22,386 nt of DNA from a virus, in the IMG/VR virus record IMGVR_UViG_3300020183_000502, positions 1 to 22,386 of that record. One strand, written 5' to 3'. The position numbers were made by a program, and so were the translations under genes. Below are positions 2,658 through 20,927 of the stretch, piece by piece. The notes beneath the pieces were generated by a model. That model did no database searches. It had not been told where the DNA came from and worked only from the letters and a program-made list of their open reading frames with translations. Numbering within the stretch: position 1 is the first letter of the stretch; each line of letters begins with the position of its first letter.

Positions 2658-2660
2658 TTT

Positions 2661-2680
2661 ATCTCCTAAATTTATTTATA
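2661..2680 (-). promoter_or_regulatory. Late promoter and ribosome binding site of gene 23
   Basis: On the minus strand this reads TATAAATA (2673-2680), the exact T4 late box, then AATTT, then AGGAGAT (2661-2667) and AAA before the ATG. The box ends 15 bp before the ATG. If the box spans -13 to -6 as in T4, the mRNA would begin at about 2667, the first base of the Shine-Dalgarno, giving a 10-nt leader. The box and ribosome site are seen; the start point is inferred. Confidence 0.88.
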
Positions 2681-2684
2681 ATAA

Positions 2685-3701
2685 TTATTTCTTTGTATGT
2701 CTACTCAAGGCTTTTGTATACTTATCCATCACGCCTTCGGTAATTACTTCTGGCTGTGTTGATGTTTCCAAGATGTCAACAGGAGGCAGACTTCTCGCTG
2801 GGACAACTGGGGAAATTGGTCTTACTTTAGGTGCAGAAACATGCTGAGATCTTAGGAAACTTTCCTTGATGATTCTTAGCTTATCTCTGAACATCTCGGG
2901 TGATTCATATTCTACGCCTTCGCATAGGTTCTTTAGTCTTTCGACTTGGGTAGCAGCAAGACCGCGAGTCTCTTCTGCAAAGATTGCGACAGTAGCAGAT
3001 TCCATGATCTTCTTGCGTAGAACAACGTTTGCATTGATAACATCATTCAATTCTGAATTTTGTTCATCAATGGTTTCGTATAGTTCATCAAGAACATCAT
3101 ACTTTTCATCTGGAACATCGATGAAATTGCTTTCAAAAAGCTTCTTGAGTCCGAAGATGAAGTTTTCTGCTAGCTCGACCTTTAGGCCGCGCTCAACCTG
3201 AAGCTTATTTTCAGTAACCCATTCTTCTACGACGTAGGTTAGATAATCATCTACCTTTTCGGTTAGCTGATCGACCATACCTTCTAGAGCTGTGTTATAC
3301 TCATTGGCATAGTGTTCTTCAATTTGTCTTGCTGCTTGACCAACCTTTTCGTTTACAGCAGCAACAAAAATTGTCTTTGCCTTTTCGATGAAATCTTCTG
3401 AAAGATTTGTATTGGCAAAAAGTGCGGCAAGATGCTCCTTTAGAGCTTCTTCTGCCGACTCCTCATCGCCTTCTTCTTCCATATCCATTTCTGGCTCTTC
3501 AACAGGTGCTGATCCCATACCCAATCGTGCGCCCATTCCCATGCCCATACCACCCGAGCTAGTTGCGCGACCGGGGCCTGAAACGCTAGCCTTGTTTCTG
3601 CCTTCTAAACCTTCAATTGGTGAAGGAAGTTCAAATCCTTTACCCGTAGTGTCGAAACTACCTTTACCCATAAAATCTGAAACTGGTTGTTTGTTTTGCA
3701 T
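2685..3701 (-). CDS. 22: Prohead core scaffold protein gp22
   Basis: This 338-aa acidic, mostly helical protein lies directly upstream of gp23, the invariant place of the T4 scaffold gene 22 (269 aa in T4). Residues about 43-60 form a Gly/Met-rich low-complexity stretch (GGMGMGMGARLGMG), followed by a very acidic run (EMDMEEEGDEESAEEALKEH) and long predicted coiled-coil helices across about residues 100-260. In T4 the scaffold is cut to peptides by gp21 after capsid assembly; I-T-E-G near the C-terminus matches the (I/L)xE cleavage pattern. The start has a GGAGA ribosome site and a late promoter 15 bp upstream. The identity rests on position, size, acidity and coiled-coil character more than on residue identity. 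Confidence 0.85.
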   Translation of the reverse strand: MQNKQPVSDFMGKGSFDTTGKGFELPSPIEGLEGRNKASVSGPGRATSSGGMGMGMGARLGMGSAPVEEPEMDMEEEGDEESAEEALKEHLAALFANTNLSEDFIEKAKTIFVAAVNEKVGQAARQIEEHYANEYNTALEGMVDQLTEKVDDYLTYVVEEWVTENKLQVERGLKVELAENFIFGLKKLFESNFIDVPDEKYDVLDELYETIDEQNSELNDVINANVVLRKKIMESATVAIFAEETRGLAATQVERLKNLCEGVEYESPEMFRDKLRIIKESFLRSQHVSAPKVRPISPVVPARSLPPVDILETSTQPEVITEGVMDKYTKALSRHTKK

Positions 3702-3707
3702 TTATAA

Positions 3708-3724
3708 TCTCCGTTTTATTTATA
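3708..3724 (-). promoter_or_regulatory. Late promoter and ribosome binding site of gene 22
   Basis: TATAAATA (3717-3724, minus strand) is followed by AAACGGAGATTATAA and the ATG. The box is 15 bp from the start, as at gene 23. The ribosome site GGAGA is at 3708-3712. T4 geometry would place the mRNA 5' end at about 3711, inside this site, leaving a 10-nt leader. Confidence 0.85.
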
Positions 3725-3735
3725 ATCTTTATTAA

Positions 3736-4305
3736 TTAAGTTCCTCGTCGTTTAAATCTTTGAGGAAGTCCTGCCATTTCTGCTGGATCTGTTGCAATAT
3801 TGCTTATTGTTCTTGTTATGTAAGGAATCCCCAGGATACCTTTTTCAGCTCCTTTAGAAGATTTTATTATGTCTCCAAATACATCTCCCAAAAAGGATTC
3901 TCCAGAATCAGTAGAGGCAACTGCTGCTCCGCCAGCAGCTGCCGCTCCAACTCCTAGAGGACTCAAATCTCCTTTTGGTCCTTGTCTTAAACCTAAAAGT
4001 TCTGATCCTCTTCCTTGTTCTGCCAATTTTTTAAGTCTTTCAACTTCAAAATAATCTCTAGAACCTGGAGTATGTGGATTTGATCTACCTAACACATCAG
4101 AAATATAATCTTGTGTTGTTTGCTGTGTTTTAGCCCTTTGACTCGCAGCTTGTGCTTTTTTGGCTTTTCCTTTAGGTGTCAAATCTTTTATTTGTTTGCC
4201 AAGATATCTAAAACCACTAGCAACAAAACCTCCTCTACTCTCAACAAGCATTCTTTTTGAGGTATTATAGAGAGATAATTCTTGTTCTTTTGAAAGCGGT
4301 TTCAT
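3736..4305 (-). CDS. Unrecognised basic protein between protease and scaffold genes
   Basis: I do not recognise this 189-aa protein. The first 60 residues are rich in Lys/Arg (KDLTPKGKAKKAQAASQRAK), which would suit DNA or scaffold binding. Residues about 116-131 are a Gly/Ala-rich, weakly hydrophobic stretch (LGVGAAAAGGAAVAS), and the C-terminus is basic (RFKRRGT). There is a possible gp21-type site (L-A-E-Q) near residue 94. It overlaps the gp21 gene by 4 bp (ATGA), so it is probably made by coupled translation and belongs to the prohead operon. T4 has genes 67 and 68 before 21 and nothing between 21 and 22, so this is either a relocated core or internal protein or a lineage-specific addition. 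A prohead core role is inferred from context only. Confidence 0.6.
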   Translation of the reverse strand: MKPLSKEQELSLYNTSKRMLVESRGGFVASGFRYLGKQIKDLTPKGKAKKAQAASQRAKTQQTTQDYISDVLGRSNPHTPGSRDYFEVERLKKLAEQGRGSELLGLRQGPKGDLSPLGVGAAAAGGAAVASTDSGESFLGDVFGDIIKSSKGAEKGILGIPYITRTISNIATDPAEMAGLPQRFKRRGT

Positions 4306-4949
4306 TTAATTTTTCTTAAAAAATCTTCAAATAATTTAATAGAAGTTTGCTGAAGTTTTCTTTTTGGAGTTGATTTTAGTGCTTGATGATAAGAAGCAAT
4401 CTGATTTTCTTTCAGAATACCGTTATCCCAAACCCATTCTTTTCCTTCCATAATCCCATTAACAAAAGCATTTGGAGCCGAAGGATCTGCTACAATATCA
4501 ATTGCAGCAAGCATGAAGTCTTCCTTTACAAAGTTGACTCCGCCCTTCTTTTCAAGAGAACCCATTCCTCTTGTAGAAACTCCTAGCTTGGCTCCTTCGC
4601 TCATTAGATTTTTAACAATCTGACCGCAAGGAGTATCAAGAATCTTTGCTTTACCATGAAAGTCGTTTCCGCTTTCATAAAGGAATTTTACCATATGAGA
4701 AACACGATCAAGATTTACAGAAGGTCCAGTTGGGTGGTTTAATTCGCCTAAAGCTCTGCTTTTCTGGACGTATTCTTTGTTATATCGATTAGCTTCTTTT
4801 ACTAAAATTTGCTTGGGATAAATTCTACCGTTTTTATTCTGAGTCTCAGCTTGCATAAAAACGCCTTCAATGAAGAATTGTTTATCTCCATTTTCAGCGC
4901 GTTCTGTTAGATACGCAATATCTTCGACTGTTTCGGTAATTAATTTCAT
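4302..4949 (-). CDS. 21: Prohead core protease gp21
   Basis: This 215-aa protein (T4 gp21 is 212 aa) matures the prohead by cutting scaffold, core and capsid proteins at (I/L)xE sites. The family blocks appear in order: FIEGVFMQAE near residue 26, R-I-Y-P-K at 42-46, G-E-L-N-H-P at 68-73 with candidate catalytic His72, G-V-S-T-R-G-M-G-S-L at 123-132 with candidate nucleophile Ser125, and DIVADPSAPNAF from residue 151. These match T4 gp21 nearly block for block. The start codon directly follows the stop of the gp67-like gene (TAAATG), and the 3' end overlaps the next gene by 4 bp. It is therefore part of a coupled head-assembly set. Confidence 0.95.
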   Translation of the reverse strand: MKLITETVEDIAYLTERAENGDKQFFIEGVFMQAETQNKNGRIYPKQILVKEANRYNKEYVQKSRALGELNHPTGPSVNLDRVSHMVKFLYESGNDFHGKAKILDTPCGQIVKNLMSEGAKLGVSTRGMGSLEKKGGVNFVKEDFMLAAIDIVADPSAPNAFVNGIMEGKEWVWDNGILKENQIASYHQALKSTPKRKLQQTSIKLFEDFLRKIK

Positions 4950-5297
4950 TTATTCTTTGCCTTTATTTTGCTTATTCATGATTGCAGTTGCTTTAGCAAT
5001 TGCCTTCTTCTTTGGCATGCCTCTCTTCATGAATAACGCAATAAGAGAATCTAACTTATCGGTGGTTCCATCATCATTTTGATCTTCGTATTTTCCCTCT
5101 CCGCCTTCGCTGCTTTCTCCACCGCCACCGCCACCATCTCCTCCGCTATTCTCTTCGCTGAAGTACATCTTGGCTATATCCTTGTATTCTTCAGCCAATC
5201 TCTCTCCTAGCTTTAATGCCAAATCCTCGCAAATAATACGCTTGGCATCAATGGCGTTTTCTTCTAAAATTGATTTTATAATTTTTCTTGATTTCAT
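4950..5297 (-). CDS. 67: Prohead core protein, gp67-like
   Basis: This small protein (115 aa; T4 gp67 is 80 aa) lies between the portal and the protease genes, the T4 location of gene 67. The N-terminal half is helical with mixed charge (MKSRKIIKSILEENAIDAKR). Residues about 51-68 are almost only Gly, Ser and Glu (GGDGGGGGGESSEGGEG), encoded by repeated GGN codons. The C-terminal third is Lys-rich (KRGMPKKKAIAKATAIMNKQ). In T4, gp67 is an abundant core protein trimmed by gp21 to internal peptides; I-L-E near residue 12 is a possible site. It has its own late promoter and a GAAAGGA ribosome site. The assignment rests on position and composition. Confidence 0.65.
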   Translation of the reverse strand: MKSRKIIKSILEENAIDAKRIICEDLALKLGERLAEEYKDIAKMYFSEENSGGDGGGGGGESSEGGEGKYEDQNDDGTTDKLDSLIALFMKRGMPKKKAIAKATAIMNKQNKGKE

Positions 5298-5304
5298 AGT
5301 TTTA

Positions 5305-5320
5305 TCCTTTCTTATTTATT
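5305..5320 (-). promoter_or_regulatory. Late promoter and ribosome binding site of the gp67-like gene
   Basis: AATAAATA (5313-5320, minus strand) is followed by AGAAAGGATAAAACT and the ATG, again a 15-bp gap. The ribosome site GAAAGGA is at 5305-5311. The predicted mRNA start at about 5307 would leave a 10-nt leader. This box would serve the 67-21-189aa group. Confidence 0.75.
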
Positions 5321-5335
5321 TTTTATTTAAGTTGG

Positions 5336-6913
5336 CTATTCTGGCTGCTGTTCTTCTGGTTTAGATTGTTCTTCTGGAGCTGAAGCTTGGGTCATTTGAA
5401 GTTCTAGTTCCATTTGACGCAATTCTTCTTCCCTCTTAGCAGCCAAATCTACGGCCATTTCTTCGTCAAGAACCTTAATTTCTTCGTCTGTAAGCTTTAA
5501 AATATTTCGTTTAATATAATTGGTAGAAAAATATCTACCGACAAGAGGTTCCATTTGTCCAGCCAAATCCATTCTTGCACTCAAAATTTCGGCATCTTTT
5601 AGATCATTAAAATACGAATCTTTATTAAATGCAAAGTTAATATTTGGATATAGTAAATCCCAATCTTGTTCTGTGATTATTCCCTTGAGCAAAAGCTGAA
5701 CTCTCAATAGTTGAAGGAATAATCCAGAAAATTTATATCGAAGTTTTTCTATAAACTTATAAAATTTAACTTCATCTCGCGTAATTTCAGCTGATCTTCC
5801 AAGATTAAAACCATTTTCTCCTGCCAGACGGGAAGGAGGAATATTTAAAGCGTAATAAAGCTTTTTCTTAAAATACTCAACATCTGTTAATTCGCCCAGA
5901 TTTTGGCCTCCGTCTAGGGTAGAAATTTCAGTACCCTTTCCACCTTCTCTTCTCGGTAGCCAGAAGTCCTCAAGCATTGCCATTTGATTTCTATCGTCTT
6001 TGATTTCGCCAGTAGTCTGGTTATAAACCATTCTATTGCGATACTTGTTCATTAACTCACGAATATATTGTTCGGCCTTCTGCTTTGGCAAGTTACCGAC
6101 ATCCACATAGAAAATTCTTCTCTCAGGAGCGCGGGAGATGCGATATACGACGATTGCATCTTCAACCTGTCGTAGCATATTTAGCGGTCTAATGGCCTTG
6201 TGGAGGAATCCTAGAACCCTCTTAGAGTTCATATCAACCATGCCAGAGTGAACATAGCATATTGCATCTGATGATATTCTAAGACCTGAAGAATTGGTTG
6301 ATATTACAGAATTCTTATCATTATTTGCGTAGGTGTAATACTCTTCGATGTCTTTAATCAACATCATAGAATCAGTACCTTGCTTAGTTCCTGAAGTTTT
6401 TACTTTTCTAACTTTCTTGATCTTAGTAGCATCAAGAGGAACTAATTGCTGAATTCCATCTCCTGGATTTTCGCTATCAATGGTTATGTAATAGAATAGT
6501 TTTGAATCAACATACCATCTTCTGAATATTTCATATCCTTTATCTTGGAAATCCAAAAGCTTTAAAATATTATTAAATTCTTCGTGTATTTTGCTTTTGA
6601 TATTATCAGAGTAATCTATTTTTTGTAGATCTAATTTTATTGGTCTTCTATCATTACCCATTACAATAGATTCATTTGAAATTTCATCTATTGCTGTATC
6701 GACTTCAGGATACAATGCCATTGCTCTATATTGAGCAATTATTGCGTTATCGTCTTTAGCAGATCCCATGAAGTCAATAAATGTTCCATATACACCAGCA
6801 CCTTCAAGTGTATATGCTCCATCAAATTCTTCGGGCGTAGTAAAGTTTTGAAGATTTTTTGTTTCTTCTTTCTTTTCTCTGCCAATACTAAATCCAAATA
6901 AATTCCAGGCCAT
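5336..6913 (-). CDS. 20: Portal vertex protein gp20
   Basis: At 525 aa this has almost the same length as T4 gp20 (524 aa). The dodecameric portal sits at one head vertex, starts prohead assembly and is the channel for DNA packaging by gp17. Clear family blocks include F-R-R-W-Y-V-D-S-K-L-F at 130-140, I-C-Y-V-H-S-G-M-V-D, LGFLHKAIRPLN, V-V-Y-R-I-S-R-A-P-E-R-R, a tunnel region with EDFWLPRREGGKGTEISTL, and LLLKGIITEQDW. The C-terminal tail is rich in Glu and Gln. An upstream GGAG (6920-6923) supports the start. The gap to the second tube gene is 11 bp, with no late box of its own, so it is probably read from promoters further upstream. Confidence 0.97.
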   Translation of the reverse strand: MAWNLFGFSIGREKKEETKNLQNFTTPEEFDGAYTLEGAGVYGTFIDFMGSAKDDNAIIAQYRAMALYPEVDTAIDEISNESIVMGNDRRPIKLDLQKIDYSDNIKSKIHEEFNNILKLLDFQDKGYEIFRRWYVDSKLFYYITIDSENPGDGIQQLVPLDATKIKKVRKVKTSGTKQGTDSMMLIKDIEEYYTYANNDKNSVISTNSSGLRISSDAICYVHSGMVDMNSKRVLGFLHKAIRPLNMLRQVEDAIVVYRISRAPERRIFYVDVGNLPKQKAEQYIRELMNKYRNRMVYNQTTGEIKDDRNQMAMLEDFWLPRREGGKGTEISTLDGGQNLGELTDVEYFKKKLYYALNIPPSRLAGENGFNLGRSAEITRDEVKFYKFIEKLRYKFSGLFLQLLRVQLLLKGIITEQDWDLLYPNINFAFNKDSYFNDLKDAEILSARMDLAGQMEPLVGRYFSTNYIKRNILKLTDEEIKVLDEEMAVDLAAKREEELRQMELELQMTQASAPEEQSKPEEQQPE

Positions 6914-6924
6914 TTAAATCTCCA

Positions 6925-7461: not shown

Positions 7462-7463
7462 GT

Positions 7464-7973
7464 TTATCCTGTGAAGTAGTCGTAATTTATTTGAACCCCA
7501 AATGTATTATAACCGTTCTGGGTCATGGTAAAATCAATTGGATTTACGATGACAGGCCAGCATCCAACAAGAGTCATTACTTTAAGTTCGTTACCGTTTT
7601 GATCTAAATGTTTAACAGTCCAATTTCTCTTTGCATCAGAAAAACTATCTGTTATTGTAGAGCTTCTTTGATTAGAAACATGCTCATTTATTAATTTTTG
7701 CCATTGATGGAACGAATGCCAAAGGGATGTATTTGTATCGTCTAATACAGTTATATCCCATGGTTCGTATGTTCTGTCGCCAGCAAAGTTAGCAAATCTT
7801 CCTCTATGAGGAACAGAAACCACTCCTAAATCAGAAGAAGGCAAAGAAGCAGAAACAATATGATAGGTGGTAGTGTTATTGATTACATTGGAAGGCCATG
7901 TTCCAGTAACTATAAACCTATTTTTTCTAGTTCCGCCTTTAAAAGCTGAAATAAAATCGGTAATTGAAGCCAT
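7464..7973 (-). CDS. 19: Tail tube protein, first copy (gp19-like)
   Basis: This 169-aa protein is close in length to T4 gp19 (163 aa). It has GGTRKNRFIVTG at the N-terminus, I-V-S-A-S-L-P, H-R-G-R-F-A-N-F-A-G-D-R-T-Y (T4 has A-G-D-R-T-F), WDITVLDD, L-V-G-C-W-P-V-I-V-N-P-I-D and a terminal I-N-Y-D-Y. The A-G-D-R-T-Y-E-P-W form is nearest to T4, so this may be the main tube subunit. It follows the second sheath gene by 3 bp with no obvious Shine-Dalgarno, implying translational coupling. Confidence 0.93.
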   Translation of the reverse strand: MASITDFISAFKGGTRKNRFIVTGTWPSNVINNTTTYHIVSASLPSSDLGVVSVPHRGRFANFAGDRTYEPWDITVLDDTNTSLWHSFHQWQKLINEHVSNQRSSTITDSFSDAKRNWTVKHLDQNGNELKVMTLVGCWPVIVNPIDFTMTQNGYNTFGVQINYDYFTG

Positions 7974-9272: not shown

Positions 9273-10441
9273 TAAGATTGATTTATAGTAAATCTAAATG
9301 TTATTTCGTTAACTGAGAAGTTAGGCTTGAAAACAAGATCAACTACGAATTGACGAGCCTGTACAGTAGAAGTGGTATTATTCGAAGCATCGCAGACTAT
9401 GCTATACGAAGAAATACCTCTACCAGACTTGATAAATTCCATAACAGCAGTAGCGTCAGTAACAAACTTTGCTCTTGTTTCTGCATCATTTAGTTCGAAT
9501 AAAATTGAGTCTAGAATAGGTCTAAAAGATCTCTTGATGTATAGAAGAAGTCTTGAAATACCTACTTGTTTCTTATTGTCGTCAGAAATTTCGTATGTCC
9601 TATCTCCTAGAAGATAAAGTCCATCATTTCCAATCAAATTATTAAACGAGTTAATTTTTTCATTTGATAAGAAATTTGTGACATCAGTATCTGTAAAATT
9701 AGGAGTAATATTTGTAAAAGAATTTACTTCTCCTCTAACTACACCAGCAGGAGCAAACCAGGGGAAGAAAGACGCATCTGTTCTTGCCATACATCCGGCA
9801 GCGTCAGAAGTCATCAAAATCGCAATATTGCTGGTTGATCCACCATATATTCTAGCTCTTTCTTTTCTTCCAATTACAGAGAAAATAAGATCATCGTATA
9901 GGGTTATACCACTGATACCTGCTTTTTGAGAAATTCCAAAAAGTGCAGGAGATGAAGTTGATGGATAAGTACCAGTAGAACCATTACTATATTCAAAACT
10001 AGTTCCAACAATGCCGATTAAATCCTGTCTAAGATTTAAAAGGTTTGTTATATCAGTAAATCTTTCTTTTGTTTCACAGAAAGCTGAATCTAATTCAAGT
10101 TCATTTACGTTTAATTGTGTAGCTCCTGTTGCAAACACAATCTGACCACCATACTCTAAGTAATTTAATGCAGAATGAAGTTCTCTATCTGAAGTTGTAC
10201 CATTGGACAAAGTGTCTCCCTTCGCCAAACCAACAGTTCCTAGTAACTGTGAATTTGTAAATTCTCCGAGTAGATCCTGAGAATTTGTATAAATTTTATA
10301 GGTAGGAACAGGAGAATCCCCATCAATTATATGATTAAAAAGGCTTAATCCGCAAAGAAATGCCGAAAGATGGGTAGATGCCTGACCAGCAATGCTTGTT
10401 ACTATGTTGGATGAATTTTCGTTTATGTTAATTTGTGGCAT
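9272..10441 (-). CDS. 18: Tail sheath protein, first copy (gp18-like)
   Basis: This 389-aa contractile sheath subunit is much shorter than T4 gp18 (659 aa), near a minimal sheath core. Recognisable parts are the early A-S-T-H-L-S-A-F segment, R-E-L-H-S-A-L-N-Y-L-E-Y-G-G near 86-99, F-F-P-W-F-A-P-A-G-V-V-R-G near 225-237, a G-D-R-T-Y-E near 279-284, and the C-terminal Y-S-I-V-C-D-A-S-N-N at 346-355 followed by the strand-donating tail. An AAGGA ribosome site lies 7 bp before the ATG. It starts 3 bp after the gp17 stop, with a late promoter inside the end of gene 17. A second sheath gene follows at once. Confidence 0.94.
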   Translation of the reverse strand: MPQININENSSNIVTSIAGQASTHLSAFLCGLSLFNHIIDGDSPVPTYKIYTNSQDLLGEFTNSQLLGTVGLAKGDTLSNGTTSDRELHSALNYLEYGGQIVFATGATQLNVNELELDSAFCETKERFTDITNLLNLRQDLIGIVGTSFEYSNGSTGTYPSTSSPALFGISQKAGISGITLYDDLIFSVIGRKERARIYGGSTSNIAILMTSDAAGCMARTDASFFPWFAPAGVVRGEVNSFTNITPNFTDTDVTNFLSNEKINSFNNLIGNDGLYLLGDRTYEISDDNKKQVGISRLLLYIKRSFRPILDSILFELNDAETRAKFVTDATAVMEFIKSGRGISSYSIVCDASNNTTSTVQARQFVVDLVFKPNFSVNEITFRFTINQS

Positions 10442-10444
10442 TTT

Positions 10445-12085
10445 TTATCCTTCTGTGAACCAAAGATCGTTTCCATCACTTACAGCATCTTCAAAAATTT
10501 CAGGACCCATCAAAAAAGTCGTATTTTCTTCTTCCTCTTCTGGTTTATTTATATCTTTTTTCTTTTGTAATTCGATTATCTCTTCGAAGTATCCCTGCCT
10601 AGTAAGCCAGCCAAAAAGAACCAAGCACATGACCAAGTCATCCGTATAACCCTCATCAGCCACGAAGGACTGTTGTTTGGCCACGAATGTCATCAATTCT
10701 TGTATAATATTTTGGTCGTTTAAAACAAGTTTATCCTGTTCGATCAATGTTTTAAGAACAGCACACCCTAATTTTTTTACTGCCGAGCTGGTTCTAACGC
10801 CAAGCTGTTTGCTTTTATTACCGAAACCAAGAGAAACTTTTTGTCCTGCTCTGCCCATATACACTGTCTGAATGATGTTATCATATTCAAACTCTTCGTG
10901 CATAGCATCTGCTACTTGACCTCCGATATCATTGACTTCAATTAAAACGTGGGCATCATTGTACTTTGTTACTAAATTATAAAGTTCAACTGGGAAATCA
11001 AATGGAGATATAACATTATTTCTATAAGTAGCAACTACCCTATAAGGTTTTTCTGTTACGTTTATTACAATTACTGCCGTATAGTCTTTACCCTGACCTC
11101 TTGCAGTATCCGCAATTGCAAAATAAACATTATCTGGTTTTGTGTGTTCAAATACCCTAAGACCATTATGGGTACTTTCTAAAGGTCTTTCGTGCTGAAG
11201 TACAGAAAGTTTACTTGTGCTAATTAGAGTATTAGATGAACCAAGGAACGAACATTCAAATTCGCTTTCAAATTGCTGTTCGCTTGTCTGAGCAATAACT
11301 TCTCTTCTCCAATCATCATCTCTTAGAGGCCCACCAGCATACTTAGGAACCTGTCTCCAGGATACTTCTATAGGAACGTATTCGTTCTTCCCGTCTTCTC
11401 CAGGCTTCCTTGTAGCCCCCCTCCAGAAGCTATAGAACATATTCAAGCCATTAGGAGTAGATACCATTAAGACCTTGGTGGTCTGGCCTGATGTAATTGT
11501 TGGATAAACAGAGCTAAAGAATTCTTCTGCTACGTTTTGCGGAACATGAGCAAATTCGTCCAAAAAAATTAGATTAAATGAACCACCACGAATAGCTGAC
11601 GAAGAAGTTGCTGATGCCATAACTTTAGAACCATTTTCCAACTGAACAGAAGTTTTATTCCATTCTATGATGCCTTGCTGAAGCCACTTTGGAATATATT
11701 CATATGCTAATTTTAAACGACCTAAAATTTCTCTAGCAGTATTCATCTTATTTGCAAGAATACCAACACTCATACTCTGATTGAATAAAATATAATGCAG
11801 AATATAAGATACGATTGTAGTGCTTTTACCAGACTGTCTTGGAAGTTTAGCAATAAGATAACGATTGTTATGCATCTTATTGACCATATTTTCCTGATAA
11901 TCATAAAGATCAAAAGGAACTAAACCTTTATCAAGAGAAACTACTTTAACATATTTTTTTATAAAATAAATTGGATCATTGGCGCAACGAAGATATTCCC
12001 GAATTTGATCTTCGGTGTAATCAATCTTAATACCAGCTTCTTTTAAATTAGGATTACCTAAGTATCCTTTAAACTTCCTCGTCAT
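10445..12085 (-). CDS. 17: Terminase large subunit gp17
   Basis: This 546-aa protein (T4 gp17 is 610 aa) is the packaging motor and headful nuclease that docks on the portal. The N-terminal ATPase has Walker A PRQSGKST at 82-89 (Lys87), Walker B with adjoining catalytic Glu N-L-I-F-L-D-E at 171-177, and coupling motif S-T-P-N-G at 209-213. The C-terminal RNase H-like nuclease has A-D-T-A-R-G-Q-G-K-D at 325-334 (Asp326), I-E-V-N-D at 382-386 (Glu383) and D-E-G-Y-T-D-D-L-V-M at 477-486. All key residues are present, so it should be active. It overlaps gene 16 by 17 bp, and AAAGG upstream of the ATG supports this start. A late promoter for the tail genes lies in its last 110 bp. Confidence 0.97.
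   Translation of the reverse strand: MTRKFKGYLGNPNLKEAGIKIDYTEDQIREYLRCANDPIYFIKKYVKVVSLDKGLVPFDLYDYQENMVNKMHNNRYLIAKLPRQSGKSTTIVSYILHYILFNQSMSVGILANKMNTAREILGRLKLAYEYIPKWLQQGIIEWNKTSVQLENGSKVMASATSSSAIRGGSFNLIFLDEFAHVPQNVAEEFFSSVYPTITSGQTTKVLMVSTPNGLNMFYSFWRGATRKPGEDGKNEYVPIEVSWRQVPKYAGGPLRDDDWRREVIAQTSEQQFESEFECSFLGSSNTLISTSKLSVLQHERPLESTHNGLRVFEHTKPDNVYFAIADTARGQGKDYTAVIVINVTEKPYRVVATYRNNVISPFDFPVELYNLVTKYNDAHVLIEVNDIGGQVADAMHEEFEYDNIIQTVYMGRAGQKVSLGFGNKSKQLGVRTSSAVKKLGCAVLKTLIEQDKLVLNDQNIIQELMTFVAKQQSFVADEGYTDDLVMCLVLFGWLTRQGYFEEIIELQKKKDINKPEEEEENTTFLMGPEIFEDAVSDGNDLWFTEG
10546..10553 (-). promoter_or_regulatory. Internal late promoter ahead of the sheath genes
   Basis: An exact TATAAATA (minus strand) lies inside the 3' end of gene 17, 104 bp upstream of the first sheath ATG. 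It would boost sheath and tube transcription relative to terminase, which fits the far larger amounts of tail protein needed. The consensus is exact, but the site is coding sequence (an Asp-Ile-Asn-Lys stretch), so chance is possible. Confidence 0.65.
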
Positions 12086-12491: not shown

Positions 12492-13553
12492 TTACTCGCA
12501 TATTTGCATAGTTGTAAATCTACTATCTACTTGATCGTAATAAGTTCCATTTGTAACTCGTATAACAAACGTTTGTTTATTTGCTGTAAAACTATAAAGA
12601 ACAGGATTTAAGCACGAAGGTTCGTAATAATCAAGACCTAAAGAAGTAGAAATTTGTTCTCTTAAAGAATTTACATCATCTTGTGTTAATGATGTAGTTG
12701 CAGCAGATACTTGTAACGTTGCAATTGCTTTATCGACTTTGGGTTCATAAATTTGAATGTAGTTAAATTTATCAGGAGGATTGGTAACAGTCCAAGTAAA
12801 ATTGTTTATAAACGAAGTATCAGAACCATTTAAAATGTAAGTATTTGAAATGTAATTCTTGTTTATAGCTACGCTAGAAATTGATAGATCTTCGTCATCT
12901 TCAGTAGCTCCTAATGCTGTAATATTAAACACAGCAGTTTCTGATGGAGCACCAGTTTTAATTTCTCCGAAGACATAACTCATAGCATTGAAAGTCATAG
13001 TTCCTATCAATACTCTTCTAGATTTATATTCCCCATCCGATTCATCTAAAATTTTTAATCGATCAAAACTAATAGGAACATTTATGTTCTGAAATACATC
13101 ATTAAAATTTATTCTAAGATTAAATTCAGGATTAAAATATGCCATTATCTGTTCTGATATTTGGAATAGTTCATCTAAATTTTTAGTATAGAAATAAATT
13201 GTAAAACTTACTTGGACTGGTGTTTCTGAAAATCCTTTATATGTTGTATTTTCATCAACGTTATTTGAAGCAAATTTTAATTTATTTCTTTTTCTATTAT
13301 AATCATATGCTATAGCAGCAACATCAAAACTTATGTAAGGCAGATTTATCTGTGTTTTTATATTGTCAGAAATTGATGAATTAGATTCTAATCTTCTTAG
13401 AAATTTTTCTTTAGATGCAAAAGTTATAGGAACTTTTATTTTTTCTTCCACATCAGTAGTATCATTTTTTCTGGTAACATAGATCTCATCAAATAAAGAT
13501 CCAAATGCCACTACTAGTTTTCTTATCGATTGATTATTGAATGAATTAAACAT
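12492..13553 (-). CDS. 15: Tail sheath terminator gp15, with C-terminal extension
   Basis: This 353-aa protein is about 80 aa longer than T4 gp15 (272 aa), the hexameric ring that caps the tail and joins it to the neck. The N-terminal 200 residues match the family: M-F-N-S-F-N-N-Q-S-I-R, VPITFASKEKFLRRL (T4 V-P-I-T-Y-A-S-K-E-H-F), LPYISFDVAAIAYDYNRKRN, a Y-F-Y-T-K-N-L-D-E-L-F-Q-I-S-E-Q-I segment followed by A-Y-F-N-P-E-F-N (T4 L-P-Y-F-Q-P-H-F-N), and S-R-R-V-L-I-G-T-M-T-F-N-A. Residues from about 210 on are an extra beta-rich region with a Q-I-S-T-S-L-G-L-D-Y-Y-E-P-S-C segment and no T4 counterpart known to me. It shares one base with gene 14 (TAATG). Confidence 0.92.
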   Translation of the reverse strand: MFNSFNNQSIRKLVVAFGSLFDEIYVTRKNDTTDVEEKIKVPITFASKEKFLRRLESNSSISDNIKTQINLPYISFDVAAIAYDYNRKRNKLKFASNNVDENTTYKGFSETPVQVSFTIYFYTKNLDELFQISEQIMAYFNPEFNLRINFNDVFQNINVPISFDRLKILDESDGEYKSRRVLIGTMTFNAMSYVFGEIKTGAPSETAVFNITALGATEDDEDLSISSVAINKNYISNTYILNGSDTSFINNFTWTVTNPPDKFNYIQIYEPKVDKAIATLQVSAATTSLTQDDVNSLREQISTSLGLDYYEPSCLNPVLYSFTANKQTFVIRVTNGTYYDQVDSRFTTMQICE

Positions 13554-14488
13554 TAATAATTACCCTCAGAGAATGGATCTGTTTCTGTAAAGTCAATAAT
13601 TTCCATGTCAAATTTGCTACCAGAACCAGTGAAACCTCTCTGGTAATCCATCGGTGGAACTTCGCCTGCATCATCATCAAGAACAATATTTACTAATCCA
13701 TAATCGCCAGATGCAGTTGTGTTGTTGGAACTGAATGTTTGACCAGTTACTTCGTTTCTGATTACTGTGGAAGAGAATGTAATTCCATCCAATGACATGA
13801 ATTCTGCGGTTAAAGTATTACCCGATAGATCAAAGTCAAGTAGCCTGAAGTAAGCTGTAGTCCCGGCCAGAGAACCAGTTATAGAATACTTTCCACCGCG
13901 AATAGCAGAGTTGTATGCAGCAGTGAATCCGGCAGCTTGAGCATTGATAAGGAAGTTGTATATATTCTGCTTGAAATCGTTGACGGCATCGATATTTTCG
14001 TTTCCAGTATCGAAATTTTCCGCAGAGTATGTGAAAGTTTCGCATACTAAAGTGAAGACATAATTCTTGTCTAATTGATAGAATGGAAGTTCATGTTCTA
14101 CAAAGTTAATTTCGAAAAGAGTTTTTGATAAAGGAAAATAGATCAGATCTCCTTCTCTTGGTCTTAAGATATCAGCATTGTTTGTAGTGACTTCTTTATT
14201 AAATCTCTTTTTACTAATCACTACAGTCATTCTATCTTTATTCTCTATACCGAATTTTGATATTACTTCTCCCCCTTCAAATCCAGAGTAAGTAGAAATA
14301 TACATTTCGATAGGATATGCTTTAGTAAATCTATTAAGCTGATCTTCACCAAAAAATCTATCCAAATTTACAAATTCTCTAGGAATATACCAGAGTTCTT
14401 TACCCATCATTCTTATAATTTCAATGGCAATGTCTTCTGTTACATTTTGCTCAGTTGATTGGAATTTGAAATATGGATTCGTAGGCAT
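13553..14488 (-). CDS. 14: Neck protein gp14
   Basis: This 311-aa protein (T4 gp14 is 256 aa) forms, with gp13, the neck that seals the packaged head and accepts the tail. The family blocks are clear: L-W-Y-I-P-R-E-F-V-N-L-D-R-F-F-G-E-D (T4 Y-Y-V-P-R-E-Y-V-N-V-D-L-I-F-G-E-D), a F-T-K-A-Y segment, S-G-F-E-G, a R-P-R-E-G-D-L-I-Y-F-P-L stretch (T4 K-E-G-D-L-I-Y-F-P-M) and LFEINFVEHELPFYQL. The region from about residue 170 to 285 is Thr/Ser/Gly-rich and beta-like, and looks like an insertion relative to T4. It starts 2 bp after the gene 13 stop, with a weak GGGA upstream. Confidence 0.95.
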   Translation of the reverse strand: MPTNPYFKFQSTEQNVTEDIAIEIIRMMGKELWYIPREFVNLDRFFGEDQLNRFTKAYPIEMYISTYSGFEGGEVISKFGIENKDRMTVVISKKRFNKEVTTNNADILRPREGDLIYFPLSKTLFEINFVEHELPFYQLDKNYVFTLVCETFTYSAENFDTGNENIDAVNDFKQNIYNFLINAQAAGFTAAYNSAIRGGKYSITGSLAGTTAYFRLLDFDLSGNTLTAEFMSLDGITFSSTVIRNEVTGQTFSSNNTTASGDYGLVNIVLDDDAGEVPPMDYQRGFTGSGSKFDMEIIDFTETDPFSEGNY

Positions 14489-14489: not shown

Positions 14490-15293
14490 TTATCCCGTCA
14501 TCATATCAGGAGGCAATTCGTATGAGGATATTATCTGATCTTCAAGTTGTGCTATTTCTTTTTCCGCTTCTGCTGCGATAGAACCGCCTCTTAATTGAAC
14601 ACCACCAGGTAAAGAAATACCATCAAACTTAGATAGATTTAAACCCCATTGTCTTTTTATAAGAGCTGTAAAATACTTTTTAAGCATTCTATCGTTATAA
14701 ATTTCAGGATATAAATCTGGATCAAGATTTACATAAGCTTCAATCGCAATGTATGTTCCGGCTTTTAATGAAGTCCAATCTGTTTCGATGTAAAGTTTAT
14801 TTGTGACTTTATTGAATCGAATAGTTCTTTCTGGATCAAACATCATCTCAATAAGTCTGATGTATCTCTTAGTTAGATCATAGTTAGCAATTGGAGTAGA
14901 ATTAATAAATCCTAAATTTGTGTTAATACCATAAACATCGTTCAATGCTAACTGATATCTAATATCAAATAGCTCATTTGAGTTTAAAGAACCAAAAGGA
15001 AAAACTCTAATAATTGATAAAATATCGTATCCAGTAGGCTTGCTACTATTTGATCCTACTATTGGACCGAAATTAGTAGTGTCGATATACTTATTAGCCA
15101 AGTCATTGGCTGTTAGTTGATAAGAGAAAAATGCTTTCTCTACGCCATCAAAATGACGTTCTGAGAAGAACTGTAGCGCATCATCAAGTCTATCGCTAGC
15201 CTGCTCGTAATCGACATTAATTTCGATTACGGGTGCTCCCAACTGTCTATAAGCGTAGTCTATAAGAGATTGTCTTGAATTAGGCTGTGCCAT
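14490..15293 (-). CDS. 13: Neck protein gp13
   Basis: This 267-aa head-completion protein works with gp14 to close the filled head. Diagnostic stretches are S-L-I-D-Y-A-Y-R-Q-L-G-A-P-V-I-E-I-N-V-D near the start, a following D-R-L-D-D-A-L-Q-F-F-S-E-R-H-F-D-G-V-E-K-A-F, and the middle L-T-K-R-Y-I-R-L-I-E-M-M-F and A-I-E-A-Y-V-N-L-D-P segments, as in marine T4-like gp13. I chose the ATG at 15291-15293. A GTG six codons upstream (15309-15311) would extend the frame, but it lies above the late-promoter box that ends 5 bp before the ATG, and the conserved sequence starts at M-A-Q-P-N-S-R. No Shine-Dalgarno sits at a normal distance from the chosen ATG. Confidence 0.94.
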   Translation of the reverse strand: MAQPNSRQSLIDYAYRQLGAPVIEINVDYEQASDRLDDALQFFSERHFDGVEKAFFSYQLTANDLANKYIDTTNFGPIVGSNSSKPTGYDILSIIRVFPFGSLNSNELFDIRYQLALNDVYGINTNLGFINSTPIANYDLTKRYIRLIEMMFDPERTIRFNKVTNKLYIETDWTSLKAGTYIAIEAYVNLDPDLYPEIYNDRMLKKYFTALIKRQWGLNLSKFDGISLPGGVQLRGGSIAAEAEKEIAQLEDQIISSYELPPDMMTG

Positions 15294-15298: not shown

Positions 15299-15306
15299 TA
15301 TTTATG
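15299..15306 (-). promoter_or_regulatory. Late promoter abutting the gene 13 start
   Basis: CATAAATA on the minus strand, then AAATA, then the gene 13 ATG: a gap of exactly 5 bp. With T4 late geometry (box at -13 to -6) the first transcribed base would be the A of the ATG. The neck-terminase genes 13 to 17 would be served from here. Confidence 0.65.
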
Positions 15307-16562: not shown

Positions 16563-16563
16563 T

Positions 16564-18429
16564 TTAGATGGTGAATATTAAGGTTAGATTTGACTTATCT
16601 TGGTTGTAAGTAGTATTCGTTGCAAAAAGAACATCGCAGTCTTGGATATTTATACTAGATGCGGTTATGCCTGTTATATTGAATGTTCCGCTGTTAGTAT
16701 TTGCATTTTCAAAATACAGAGTAGTTCCAGATGTTATTCCGTATGATTCAAAATATGATATTTCAGCAGTTCCAGTTGAACCAGTGAAGTTTTTAAATCC
16801 CACAGAATAACTTGAGGTTGGTTTATAATTTACAAACTCCGTATCTCCAGAACCTATGTCCTTATCAAAAAGCGATTTATTTGCATAATAATTATCGTTA
16901 ATTGAAGAAGGATCAGTTACAAAGACTAATGAATCTTGTGTTAAATCAGAAGAAGAACCAGAAGATACTGATATGGTTACTGTAGAACTAGACTTTGTAG
17001 CTTCTTTGGAATCTCTGAAAACCTTGGGAGCAATTCTATATCCATTAGAATTCTTCACCCCTGTTAAGAGGAAAGCCGAGTCAAATGTATATGTTGAACC
17101 AGCACTAGGTATAGTTGTCTGGATCTTTGCAGTTGTTATGGTTGCGTTGACTGCGATGCTTTCCGTTCGTAGTAAATCATACACAGAAAGATAGCTTTCT
17201 CCTGTGGATGTTATAGGTGCTAGATTAAACTGTAAGCTAGCCAAGCACACTGAAAAATCGCCAGATGAAGCAGATCCGGTTGCAGTTACCAAATTTATTG
17301 CTTCAACATAAGTTATATTGCTACTTGATAATTGGCCTTCTAATTCTACACCAGTAACTTTCCAACCTTTATTGCTTCCAATATAGGTGGTTGTTAAATA
17401 CGCTTTGCACGACCCTATATTACCATCGGTTACAAGAGTAACCTCTGGTCTTTCTTCGCTGACATAGTAAGAAATAGAAGAGTCAACATTAAGAATAGCA
17501 TTTAAAATACAACCAGAATTTACGCTGGTTAAAATATCATAATTTTTCTTAAAAATATTTGTGGATGCATATCCAGCAGATCCACCGGATGAATAACTTA
17601 ATTTAGCAGTAACATCAGCATATGTTGCTCCACAGGGAGTGCATCCGCTTGTGGATGAGATATTAAAAAATCCTCCCAATTCGGTGCTGGTAACAGAATT
17701 TTTAAATACTGGATGAAAATCTGTAAGTGCTCCAAGATGCTCGCATGCCCAAGCATTTGCTACCTTGAATGCCCCGTAAATATCTCCTCTGGCATATGTC
17801 TTACCTGTCATCGGCTCGACAAAATCCTGCTTATAGTACAAGCAGCATGTTCCATAAGTCAATCCAGAGGAACCGTAAATGGTATTTACAGCGTCGGCTG
17901 GAAGTTGATTATCAGCAGTTACGCCTCTAAAATTAAACAGAGACTCAATACCCACAATTTTTACAAAATTGGCTGAAAGTGGTTCGTCATTATAATTGAT
18001 TTTAATCCACTTATATCCATCCTCCATTTCGATAACAGTTCCGTTTGAACCGGATGGAGTAAACTTCGATGGATTATTAGCATTTCTATCAGAGAAAAGG
18101 TTATTAGTATTATTTTCTAGGCAAAGAAATAATTCTCCACTTGTAGAATTGAAGCATGTGCTAGATTTAATATCTGGATCTGTTGAGTCATAAACCTTAA
18201 AGCTTTTTCCTGCCGCCCAATCATTTCTTTCAAAAGCTGCAAATATATCGCTTATTCCTACCCTCTTAATAAGACTTGAGACATTAGCAGCTCTTTGAGC
18301 GAGTCTGGTATCCTTACTGACATATCCAACCCCATCCACTCCAAGACCAACGTATAGATCGTCAGTAATGGCATTAGATAGGAATCTAGCAATAGATGAT
18401 GAATATCTGGACGCAGAATCGTTTCTCAT
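16564..18429 (-). CDS. 8: Baseplate wedge protein gp8-like, extended
   Basis: At 621 aa this is nearly twice T4 gp8 (334 aa). The first 150 residues follow the gp8 plan: a short helix with R-F-L-S-N-A-I-T-D-D-L-Y-V-G-L-G, L-I-K-R-V near 53-57, R-N-D-W-A-A-G-K-S-F-K-V-Y-D at 68-81 (T4 has R-R-D-W-G-D-T-R-Y), a 'C-F-N-S-T-S-G-E-L-F-L-C-L' strand pair (T4 V-V-C-N-S-A-P-Y), then G-T-V-I-E-M-E-D-G-Y-K-W (T4 T-I-E-P-G-D-G-Y-V-W). Residues from about 190 to 620 are Ser/Thr-rich beta sequence with clustered cysteines (C195-C196, C229, C263, C266) and no T4 match known to me. gp8 dimers brace the wedge arms. The ATG lies 5 bp after a late box, with no Shine-Dalgarno. Confidence 0.75.
   Translation of the reverse strand: MRNDSASRYSSSIARFLSNAITDDLYVGLGVDGVGYVSKDTRLAQRAANVSSLIKRVGISDIFAAFERNDWAAGKSFKVYDSTDPDIKSSTCFNSTSGELFLCLENNTNNLFSDRNANNPSKFTPSGSNGTVIEMEDGYKWIKINYNDEPLSANFVKIVGIESLFNFRGVTADNQLPADAVNTIYGSSGLTYGTCCLYYKQDFVEPMTGKTYARGDIYGAFKVANAWACEHLGALTDFHPVFKNSVTSTELGGFFNISSTSGCTPCGATYADVTAKLSYSSGGSAGYASTNIFKKNYDILTSVNSGCILNAILNVDSSISYYVSEERPEVTLVTDGNIGSCKAYLTTTYIGSNKGWKVTGVELEGQLSSSNITYVEAINLVTATGSASSGDFSVCLASLQFNLAPITSTGESYLSVYDLLRTESIAVNATITTAKIQTTIPSAGSTYTFDSAFLLTGVKNSNGYRIAPKVFRDSKEATKSSSTVTISVSSGSSSDLTQDSLVFVTDPSSINDNYYANKSLFDKDIGSGDTEFVNYKPTSSYSVGFKNFTGSTGTAEISYFESYGITSGTTLYFENANTNSGTFNITGITASSINIQDCDVLFATNTTYNQDKSNLTLIFTI
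16647..16654 (-). promoter_or_regulatory. Internal late promoter in the end of the gp8-like gene
   Basis: An exact TATAAATA on the minus strand lies 84 bp upstream of the next ATG (16562), within the 3' end of the gp8-like coding sequence. It could drive the 234-aa and Cys-cluster genes. It is a coding position (Ser-Ile-Asn-Ile), so it is less certain than the intergenic boxes. Confidence 0.55.
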
Positions 18430-18434
18430 ATTAG

Positions 18435-18442
18435 TATTTATT
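18435..18442 (-). promoter_or_regulatory. Late promoter abutting the gp8-like start
   Basis: AATAAATA on the minus strand overlaps the stop codon of the preceding gene (18441-18443), followed by CTAAT and the ATG: a 5-bp gap, as at genes 6 and 13. The predicted transcript would start at the A of the ATG, with no leader. Confidence 0.65.
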
Positions 18443-19193
18443 AACTTAAAACGATGGCGTATGGAGATAACTTTTCAGACGCTGTTATTGCGGTGGATAT
18501 TACTGATTTTTCTGCTCTTACCAGATTGAAATAAAACCCCATTGGTTTGAGTAATGCCTTGAAATCGTCTTCGTATTTTTCGGGTATATCTGCCTGTATT
18601 AAAATTGACCTATCCTGTTTATCTGTACCATTTGTTAAGTAGGTTTCGTTCAAAGAAGCAGCATTCAAAGTCATGGTATCTGTACCGTAATTCAAAGAAA
18701 AATCATCAAGTTCTGAATTAAAAAATGTCTTTATGAAATAACGATAAGAATCTTCAGTACCCTTTATACCCACAAATCTTGTTTTATTTGATATTAAGAA
18801 TTCTCTTAATAATTGTTCATCTTCAAAATCAGAAAAATCAAAGTCTGAAAATAAAGAAGAATAGTATTCTTTTAGATAATTTTTGTTAGTAACATAAACA
18901 TCTTGAATATTTTCATAATTTGGAGTTAAGTTCAATCCAGATTGTGAAAACAAAAAATTATAAAGTTCTTGTATAAAATCGACTATTTTTGCTTCAGAAT
19001 TAGTTTGAGTTTCGTCAAGAATCCATTGTGGAAAATGATGAGAAATGCTGTAAGTATAATTTAGATTATTACTTACTTTTTTCTGTGAATAGGCTGCATT
19101 TATCAAACCAAGAGCGTACTCTGCCCCTGCTTCTAAATTGTATTCAGTAAGAGCAAATGTTTGATCTTTGTTTTGATTAAAAAATATAATCAT
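18441..19193 (-). CDS. 7: Baseplate wedge protein, gp7 / P2 gpI-like (short form)
   Basis: This 250-aa protein lies directly after gp6. T4 gp7 is 1032 aa, but simple contractile tails use a short equivalent (P2 gpI). Supporting features are an early F-P-Q-W-I-L-D-E segment near 54-61, a helical L-Y-N-F-L-F-S-Q-S-G-L run near 77-87, and a V-G-I-K-G-T-E-D-S-Y-R-Y-F-I-K-T-F-F block near 141-158. The last resembles the 'K-G-T-x-x-x-I-x-x-x-F' motif common in gp7/gpI-type wedge proteins. The family forms the heterotrimer with two gp6 chains in each wedge. Its ATG overlaps the gp6 stop (ATGA), indicating coupled synthesis at matched amounts. The assignment rests mainly on synteny and this motif. 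Confidence 0.65.
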   Translation of the reverse strand: MIIFFNQNKDQTFALTEYNLEAGAEYALGLINAAYSQKKVSNNLNYTYSISHHFPQWILDETQTNSEAKIVDFIQELYNFLFSQSGLNLTPNYENIQDVYVTNKNYLKEYYSSLFSDFDFSDFEDEQLLREFLISNKTRFVGIKGTEDSYRYFIKTFFNSELDDFSLNYGTDTMTLNAASLNETYLTNGTDKQDRSILIQADIPEKYEDDFKALLKPMGFYFNLVRAEKSVISTAITASEKLSPYAIVLS

Positions 19194-20914
19194 GTTACTG
19201 TTAGTGAAACACTATAGCTTATGGCCATATTATTTTTTGGCGTTATTGTTTGCGAAGATGAAGTTAATGTCAAAGTAAAGGTTGAAGAAGCAGTATATGT
19301 GCTATAGAAGATTATATCTCCATTTGTTGGATTAAAAACTCCTACCTTATCTTTTACTAAAGTATCAGAAGAATTATATGCTCCAATGTACTTGTATCCA
19401 TTAAGACCTGGAACATTAGTTGTTGTGTTTTTGAATTTAACTTGATTTGCTGATAGGCTTGTAGTTACCAAATCAGTAGTAAAACTGCTGATACCATTGT
19501 AGAATCTAACTATTCTGCTGCTATCAAAATCTACTTCCTTATCAACAGTAACAGTTATATTTGAAAGCTGGACTGAAAGTGCTGGATTTTTTGTCATTAT
19601 GGTATACGCAATATCAGATTTTGACAAAGAATTGTTAAATTTTTCAGATCCGTATTGAGTTTCCAGTTCATCTATAAGTTCTGTTTTTAAAACTCCAGAG
19701 GAAATATTTGTTTTACTTGAATCATAAGAAACAGAAATACTGAGTGATCCTGTAAATGAATCCGCCTCAAGATAGGTAACATTTATACCAGAAATAGATT
19801 TTGATTTTAGATTAGCAGTTAAAGATTCTACCTGAGTAGAATCTGCTAACAAATCTATTACGGAGTAATAAACTGTTCCGTAATTATTATTGTAATCCTC
19901 CCCATCAAAAACTGATATAGAATTGTCGATATCTGTGTATGAGGCCAGATAAGAAGAATTTGCAATTTCTACTTCGTAATCGCTTTGTGTAACTAGCGAA
20001 TTATTGCTATAATATCTTGTTCCAATATACTTCAGGTAATCGATATCAGGTTCATCAAATCCTCCGTATGAAGCAACTGAGCTAACGGATACATTTGGTA
20101 TGCTGATGGTATTATTGGATTTAAACTGTTCTATAGAGCTAAAGGTTATATTGTTACCTTCCTCTCCAGAAGCAATGACATAAGAAATTTTTACCGTATT
20201 TGTAGAGATTATAGATTTACCAACAGAGTTTATATCTTGGCTGGTAAGATCTTTTCCAAATTTTACATAATAATGCTCCCCGCTTTTTACTACAAAGAAT
20301 ACCTCAGAATCTTCGTTGGTTCCTTTTACTTGATTGAGAGTATTATTTGCCCAATATCTACCATCAACACTAATAGAAACAGTTCTAAAATCTACATCCT
20401 TATCTGGAATTTTATATTCTTGCTTATCTAAATCGACAGTAACAGTTACTTCTTTTACTAAACTAGTTCCACCATAAAATTCTAATGTCTTTGATAAATC
20501 TATGGTAGTTTTTGGCCCAATGTGATAAAAATAAATTTTGGTATTATTTTGACTAGTTCCTTCAAAAGTGGCAAATCGATCAATCTGAGCCAGTTCGTTA
20601 GAATTTGACTTAGTAAAGGTTATCAATGCCAACGAAGACTTCTTTGTTGGAGGAGTAAACCCAGAAGTTTGCAGGAGTTTGGATACAGAATCTAAATTTT
20701 TAGCACTGGAGATAAAAGATTCATTGCTCAAAACATGAAGATAATGCATCCAAATGAGATTGTTGTATGAAAACAACCTTAAAACCATATCGACAGCCGT
20801 ACCCTGGCTGTCTAGATCAAACTGCTGACCTACAGCGGTTGTCTTTAGGTATGTTGTTAAATTTTGCTTTAATTTGTCAAAATCTAAGTCTACAAGGTTA
20901 ATTGGTTGATCCAT
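19190..20914 (-). CDS. 6: Baseplate wedge protein gp6 (baseplate J family)
   Basis: This 574-aa protein (T4 gp6 is 660 aa) forms the inner baseplate ring, two copies per wedge. N-terminal conservation is clear: F-D-K-L-K-Q-N-L-T-T-Y-L near 12-23, F-D-L-D-S-Q-G-T-A-V-D-M-V-L-R-L-F-S-Y-N at 32-51 (T4 Y-D-F-E-G-S-R-L-N-V-L-C-D-L-L-A-Y-N) and N-E-S-F-I-S-S-A-K-N-L near 64-74. The baseplate-J core signature sits at 284-313: G-G-F-D-E-P-D-I-D-Y-L-K, then T-R-Y-Y, then L-V-T-Q-S-D-Y-E (T4 R-C-V-T-A-T-D-Y-D). The C-terminal 150 residues are beta-rich and shorter than in T4. It starts 8 bp after the gp25-like gene, with a late box 5 bp from the ATG and no Shine-Dalgarno. Confidence 0.94.
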   Translation of the reverse strand: MDQPINLVDLDFDKLKQNLTTYLKTTAVGQQFDLDSQGTAVDMVLRLFSYNNLIWMHYLHVLSNESFISSAKNLDSVSKLLQTSGFTPPTKKSSLALITFTKSNSNELAQIDRFATFEGTSQNNTKIYFYHIGPKTTIDLSKTLEFYGGTSLVKEVTVTVDLDKQEYKIPDKDVDFRTVSISVDGRYWANNTLNQVKGTNEDSEVFFVVKSGEHYYVKFGKDLTSQDINSVGKSIISTNTVKISYVIASGEEGNNITFSSIEQFKSNNTISIPNVSVSSVASYGGFDEPDIDYLKYIGTRYYSNNSLVTQSDYEVEIANSSYLASYTDIDNSISVFDGEDYNNNYGTVYYSVIDLLADSTQVESLTANLKSKSISGINVTYLEADSFTGSLSISVSYDSSKTNISSGVLKTELIDELETQYGSEKFNNSLSKSDIAYTIMTKNPALSVQLSNITVTVDKEVDFDSSRIVRFYNGISSFTTDLVTTSLSANQVKFKNTTTNVPGLNGYKYIGAYNSSDTLVKDKVGVFNPTNGDIIFYSTYTASSTFTLTLTSSSQTITPKNNMAISYSVSLTVT

Positions 20915-20919
20915 AAAAC

Positions 20920-20927
20920 TATTTATT
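20920..20927 (-). promoter_or_regulatory. Late promoter abutting the gene 6 start
   Basis: AATAAATA on the minus strand contains the stop codon of the gp25-like gene (20923-20925). It is followed by GTTTT and the ATG, a 5-bp gap. By T4 geometry the start point would be the A of the ATG. Confidence 0.65.

Follow-up and report, generated by a model that had tools for sequence, protein, structure and literature searches.

We analysed the spacing of late-promoter boxes in a 22,386-base fragment of a T4-like phage from IMG/VR (IMGVR_UViG_3300020183_000502; hereafter the window, at its full length), in which the NATAAATA box of T4-type late promoters precedes late structural genes; relatives were used to take the test to whole-genome scale. 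ATAAATA occurs nine times in the window, always on the coding (-) strand, with six intergenic copies and three intragenic ones (at 10546, 12257 and 16647). We define the gap as the number of nucleotides (nt) between the last A of the box and the ATG. As originally predicted, the six intergenic boxes were confirmed to lie at gap 5 from the genes for gp6, gp8-like and gp13 and at gap 15 from those for gp67-like, gp22 and gp23 (Table 1). The number of boxes in the window is not above chance (nine versus 13.1 expected, both strands), and their spacing is: none of 20 permuted heptamers placed an ATG-initiated open reading frame (ORF) at gap 5, versus three observed, and 20 permuted heptamers reached at most one at gap 15, again versus three. 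Below, genes of the 5-nt class are termed leaderless and those with longer gaps leadered, after the messenger RNAs (mRNAs) predicted for them.

Table 1 Positions of late boxes, their genes and further features (E, expectation value; +1, transcription start; positions refer to the window unless another record is named)
Feature	Position	Strand	Remarks
Late box, gap 5 to gp6 ATG	20920..20927	-	predicted +1 = 20914 (A of ATG)
gp6 baseplate wedge, predicted leaderless late mRNA	19190..20914	-	ATG 20914; PHROG 219, E 1.5e-54
Late box, gap 5 to gp8-like ATG	18435..18442	-	predicted +1 = 18429
gp8-like baseplate wedge, predicted leaderless	16564..18429	-	ATG 18429; PHROG 438, E 1.5e-6, weak partial match
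Late box, gap 5 to gp13 ATG	15299..15306	-	predicted +1 = 15293
gp13 neck (head-tail adaptor), predicted leaderless	14490..15293	-	ATG 15293; PHROG 211, E 4e-37
Late box, gap 15 to gp67-like ATG	5313..5320	-	predicted +1 = 5307, leader GGATAAAACT
gp67-like, predicted minimal-leader late mRNA	4950..5297	-	ATG 5297; named by position, no PHROG match
Late box, gap 15 to gp22 ATG	3717..3724	-	predicted +1 = 3711, leader GAGATTATAA
gp22 scaffold, predicted minimal-leader late mRNA	2685..3701	-	ATG 3701; PHROG 237, E 2e-73
Late box, gap 15 to gp23 ATG	2673..2680	-	predicted +1 = 2667, leader AGGAGATAAA
gp23 major capsid, predicted minimal-leader late mRNA	1236..2657	-	ATG 2657; PHROG 138, E 3e-151
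gp25-like gene preceding gp6	20923-21300		stop codon TAA inside gp6 box
HTVC008M, annotated starts with ATAAATA at gap 5	6280, 7562, 16007, 18916, 19456, 31132, 49760, 75559		
HTVC008M, annotated starts with CTAAATA at gap 5	11972, 18943, 75830		
HTVC008M, gp2/gp4 divergent pair	18914-18945		
L208, divergent pair	13387-13422		
L294, divergent pair	13928-13961		
HTVC008M, bS21 (PF01165)	91237-91392		
Mosig, bS21 (PF01165)	9983-10132		
Melnitz, bS21 (PF01165)	35461-35619		
Gene with UvsY-like N-terminus	191-625	-	
TATAAT	632-637	-	6 nt before ATG 625; sequence match only
TTGAAA	654-659	-	16 nt upstream of TATAAT; sequence match only

Box-to-start distances in related records

Relatives were sought with gp13 and gp23; gp6 as a query in IMG/VR gave only four loci. 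In the pooled count (about 165 loci plus the window, 1.79 megabases; ATGs opening at least 50 codons, identical contexts removed), gap 5 was found 58 times, gap 6 44 times and gap 7 13 times, followed by 11 cases in total at gaps 8-14, seven at gap 15 and 1-14 at each later gap. Permuted heptamers were flat in the same loci, at 2.5-5.2 per gap. Many of the pooled loci are closely related, so the count was redone for single records and for protein families. In single records, gap 5 was found nine times in HTVC008M, six times each in Mosig, G001 and G007, five times in G006, four times in G004, three times each in Melnitz and the window and twice in G003 (which also had four at gap 6), compared to means of 0.0-1.1 per record for permuted heptamers. 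Among the large excesses, that in Mosig is the least certain, with one permuted motif reaching four. P-SSM2 and S-PM2 had one case each, P-SSM4 had two, and T4, RB49, KVP40, Syn9, G005, G002 and G008 had none. When unrelated protein families were counted in the 11 pooled records, 35 were found at gap 5, seven at gap 6, four at gap 7, 0-3 at gaps 8-14, seven at gap 15 and nine at gap 18, and the leadered gaps were occupied continuously to 40. Overall, gap 5 is a sharp mode with a tolerance of 4-7, gap 15 belongs to the lower end of a broad leadered class (about 14-40), and gaps 8-14 form a depleted zone across related records.

The start codons at gap 5 were ATG in 36 cases, GTG in two and TTG and CTG in one each, with ATG alone enriched. 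The CTAAATA variant peaked likewise, with seven cases at gap 5 and a mean of 0.3 per gap at 8-14. At orthologous positions (relatives of gp6, gp8, gp13, gp53-like and gp67), CTAAATA, the form of Aeromonas phage Aeh1, and ATACATA hold the same distances as ATAAATA, and searches limited to NATAAATA therefore miss promoters. In records G001 and G002 (L208-L216), boxes were over-represented at gaps 0-4, with several of them at exactly 4, and transcription may start at a slightly different position in this sub-lineage. An unbiased 7-mer enrichment over all ATG-initiated ORFs was too noisy to be used, being dominated by repeats and internal ATGs.

Conservation by gene and lineage

The distances are kept gene by gene. 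Relatives of gp6 had gap 5 in 14 of 14 distinct ATAAATA contexts and elsewhere often carried CTAAATA at gap 5. Relatives of gp8 had gaps of 5 (11 times), 6 (seven), 4 (two) and 10 (two), and those of gp13 mostly 6 (32) or 5 (seven), with singles at 8, 20, 27 and 28; in the set of gp13 relatives at least 70% identical, the counts were 32 at 6 and six at 5. Gaps of 4-7 were never found for gp67 (14-15 in relatives), gp22 (14, 17 and 21) or gp23 (15 in the window, 19 and longer in relatives). With both box variants (ATAAATA and CTAAATA) pooled, the leaderless to leadered counts were 0:64 for gp22, 0:30 for gp23, 0:8 for gp67, 0:5 for gp21 and 0:4 for gp19; 2:13 for gp18, 3:17 for gp20 and 8:23 for gp3; and 14:6 for gp53-like, 16:4 for gp8, 13:3 for gp25, 29:2 for gp13, 17:0 for gp6 and 3:0 for gp2. 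The leaderless share correlated with approximate T4 copy numbers (Spearman rho -0.58, p = 0.02) among contexts that are related by descent, which is suggestive only. The original prediction had assigned gap 15 to head genes and gap 5 to baseplate or neck genes, and had proposed that spacing could set translation mode and protein dose by module. This survives as a tendency, with gp22, gp23 and gp67 never leaderless and gp6 always so where a box was found, and fails as a strict rule, as gp8 (leadered in HTVC008M, Mosig and Melnitz), gp13 (leadered in Mosig), gp25 and gp3 change class in distant phages. Relatives of gp25 with gap 7 (ATAAATATTCAGAG) were kept out of the argument because the upstream coding sequence may dictate the box there; the window does not have that box.

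In a scan for ATAAATA-N5-ATG across 21 cultured or single-cell records, with the reversed pattern as a control, nine matches were found in HTVC008M, eight in Mosig and four in Melnitz. The other records, among them Aeh1, phiM12, CP220, DLP6, Bellamy and Syn33, gave 0-3, as did the reversed control. Judged by the motif counts per record, the candidate leaderless class is limited in lineage: it is strong in the pelagiphages HTVC008M and Mosig and weaker in the methylophage Melnitz, it also occurs in several of the IMG/VR relatives, and it appears at background level in T4, RB49, KVP40, Aeh1 and most cyanophages. The closest relatives of the window's gp13 are those of Mosig (44%) and HTVC008M (43%), and for gp20 and gp23 they are in Synechococcus phages, at about 52-56% (gp20 about 52%, gp23 about 55%). 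A cyanophage label for the window phage (Kyanoviridae of Synechococcus or Prochlorococcus) is not justified, and the cyanophage framing first proposed is doubtful, as most sequenced cyanomyoviruses examined lack the 5-nt class.

Predicted leaderless and leadered late transcripts

Each of the 18 comparison records has homologues of gp55 and gp45. The late box of T4 lies at -13 to -6 (PMC1524935), roughly one turn before the transcription start (PMC2988020). By analogy with T4, all six boxes of the window are very probably T4-type late promoters, of which those at gap 5 would yield leaderless mRNA and those at longer gaps leadered mRNA; it is in this way that we infer the actual start site, the translation mode and an effect on protein dose. 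The host's RNA polymerase, carrying the late sigma factor gp55 of the phage and helped by the gp45 clamp, would start RNA 6 nt past the box, as in the T4 machinery. Because the T4 box spans -13 to -6, a gap of 5 would put +1 at the A of the ATG, giving an mRNA to be translated by direct recognition of its 5'-terminal AUG. A gap of about 14 or more would give a leader able to hold a Shine-Dalgarno sequence, and gap 15 a 10-nt leader beginning at that sequence. The exclusion zone at gaps 8-14 presumably reflects leaders of 3-9 nt, which would exceed what leaderless initiation allows yet offer no space for a Shine-Dalgarno sequence, while gaps below 5, which are also depleted, would cut into the start codon. 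All 171 leaderless starts of Sinorhizobium meliloti are AUG (PMC3616915), and the requirement for ATG at gap 5 therefore fits leaderless mRNA.

Within records having the leaderless class, a strong Shine-Dalgarno sequence was present at 62 of 87 leadered genes versus 3 of 58 genes of the 5-nt class. The contrast originally noted between the two spacings shows in these counts, but the absence at gap 5 is for the most part unavoidable, since the box itself takes up the place of a Shine-Dalgarno sequence. The predicted 10-nt leaders of gp23, gp22 and gp67-like start within or next to the Shine-Dalgarno sequence, and among the cases scored in the leadered set, 17 have this sequence beginning at -1 or 0 from the predicted +1. 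The proposal that the two classes mark two translation modes is consistent with these data, with a changed meaning: leaderless versus a minimal leader starting at the Shine-Dalgarno sequence. Strong Shine-Dalgarno sequences were found at 40 of 61 leadered late genes in T4, RB49 and KVP40 and at 24 of 102 in a cyanophage set (Syn9, P-SSM2, P-SSM4, S-PM2 and G005).

We tentatively suggest a wider role for this arrangement, possible rather than probable, in which T4-like phages of heterotrophic plankton use one sigma factor and one box, and spacing alone would decide the mode: genes for low-copy baseplate, neck and DNA-end proteins would have leaderless mRNAs, and high-copy head genes would have mRNAs with a minimal leader. 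The position of the box would then set both translation mode and dose, perhaps with altered ribosomes. The ribosomal protein bS21 (PF01165) is encoded in all three cultured phages of the 5-nt class (Table 1), and no match to it was found in T4, RB49, KVP40, the cyanophages searched or the IMG/VR contigs, which are mostly fragments. A link between bS21 and start-codon selection is only a lead; bS21 as a requirement for the 5-nt class was rejected, as G006 and other records of this class show no match.

Several points weigh against leaderless late mRNAs. The predicted start position is that of T4, and the window fragment has neither gp55 nor gp45. Gaps of 6-7 are common (most gp13 relatives have 6) and would leave a leader of 1-2 nt unless the start shifts. 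The lack of Shine-Dalgarno sequences in the 5-nt class is partly geometric, the permuted-motif controls leave shared ancestry among records unmodelled, and some boxes overlap the preceding stop codon, so that read-through transcripts with coupled translation may contribute.

In several divergent gene pairs, the two ATGs are about 25-30 base pairs apart and all that separates them is a pair of late boxes set back to back, each at gap 5 (Table 1); L343 and L355 probably have the same arrangement. Because the genes diverge, translational coupling is excluded and there is no room for a leader. IMG/VR was scanned for TATTTAT-N(0-12)-ATAAATA-N5-ATG, in which only the right-hand gap is fixed at 5; the left-hand distance was measured to a CAT with an open frame, and symmetric pairs were counted twice. 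Among the matches listed, at least 24 had a left-hand gap of 4-8 and at least 30 had one of 15 or more, with none at 9-14.

An alternative explanation is that these are real late promoters whose 5-nt transcripts are minor, the genes being translated mainly from read-through operon mRNAs. The genes for gp6, gp8 and gp13 are indeed part of a tight block on one strand, at 8, 11 and 25 nt from the preceding gene, but spacing is kept while the spacer sequence changes (gp6 always has 5 with ATAAATA), so that selection seems to act on the box-to-ATG distance, and several genes of the class, such as gp2/gp4, head their transcription unit; we consider this explanation unlikely. ATAAATA at gap 5 could also be a translation signal or stop-restart element instead of a promoter, supplying a TAA stop for the upstream gene and an A-rich unstructured start for the downstream one (termination-reinitiation or S1 binding). 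The gp6 and gp8 boxes of the window, which overlap the stop of the preceding gene, would suit such an element, whereas the divergent pairs lack the upstream gene that coupling would need, no peak arises with permuted A+T-rich heptamers and the same heptamer also has a separate leadered class. In HTVC008M, moreover, where the sequence profile upstream of the box covered 4 nt, leaderless and leadered boxes share a following G (78% and 71%, versus 28% of other boxes; small numbers). We therefore give a stop-restart element little chance.

It is scarcely credible that the start codons were miscalled and that true starts with normal leaders lie further downstream. Start codons are predictions, and the ORF finder was already wrong for gp13, for which it takes GTG 15311, upstream of the late box. 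However, gp13 relatives 80-100% identical align from residue 1 of ATG 15293, which for this reason is taken as the gp13 start instead of GTG 15311; gp6, gp8 and gp13 have no second Met among their first 30 residues; and the annotation of HTVC008M uses the gap-5 starts independently, as all gap-5 ATGs compared with that record are annotated starts of coding sequences. Two fixed spacings one helical turn apart, explained by DNA phasing and marking cyanophage promoter classes, are a true description of the six window boxes but a very improbable account of the system, as 15 forms no peak outside the window and most cyanomyoviruses lack the 5-nt class. When related genomes were scanned against permuted heptamers, the original rule of only two distances held for the peak at 5, with 4-7 tolerated, and not for an exact 15, and the proposed helical-turn spacing gave way to a continuous range from about 14 to 40.

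Comparison with known systems and further observations

In the textbook case of T4 late transcription, the late mRNAs carry leaders. The window phage resembles T4 (TATAAATA promoters with gp55, gp33 and gp45) and the cyanomyoviruses S-PM2 and Syn9 (NATAAATA) in its box and late structural genes, and its relatives share gp55 and gp45 with T4-type systems and the CTAAATA variant with Aeh1. In T4, RB49, KVP40 and the cyanomyoviruses, however, boxes mostly lie 15-40 nt from the ATG and the 5-nt class is almost empty, whereas here a large share lies at 5. Similar to the leaderless mRNAs of bacteria (S. meliloti, mycobacteria and others), the predicted ones have a fixed short promoter-to-start distance, AUG only and no Shine-Dalgarno sequence, but they would be made by a phage late sigma factor alongside leadered late mRNAs. 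HTVC008M and Mosig (EXVC030M) were isolated on 'Ca. Pelagibacter ubique' HTCC1062. Together with Melnitz they have the 5-nt class as in the window, with gp2 in all three and, in HTVC008M, also gp25, gp4, gp3, gp48 and the tape measure, and differ from it in that gp8 or gp13 is leadered in some. SAR11 and OM43 are among the most abundant marine bacteria. If our reading is true, a lineage-wide move to leaderless late mRNAs in T4 relatives infecting them would be unexpected; we found no report of such mRNAs in T4-like phages, cyanophages or pelagimyophages in the open-access literature searched. Late promoters have been sought in pelagimyophages and could not be predicted (PMC7029224), likely because the box would lie against the start codon. 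The spacing would make it simple to annotate late promoters by rule and to correct start codons when T4-like phages are known only from uncultured material; it would also serve as a natural test of the competition between leaderless and leadered messages late in infection.

A possible host-sigma promoter for a leaderless mRNA precedes the window gene with a UvsY-like N-terminus, where TATAAT lies at the distance expected for a leaderless sigma70 mRNA (Table 1). A class of this kind, with TATAAT at gap 6, is only suggestive, with 17 cases in the same records compared to up to 13 for permuted hexamers. A similar gene in G008 (L278) is preceded by the same TATAAT arrangement.

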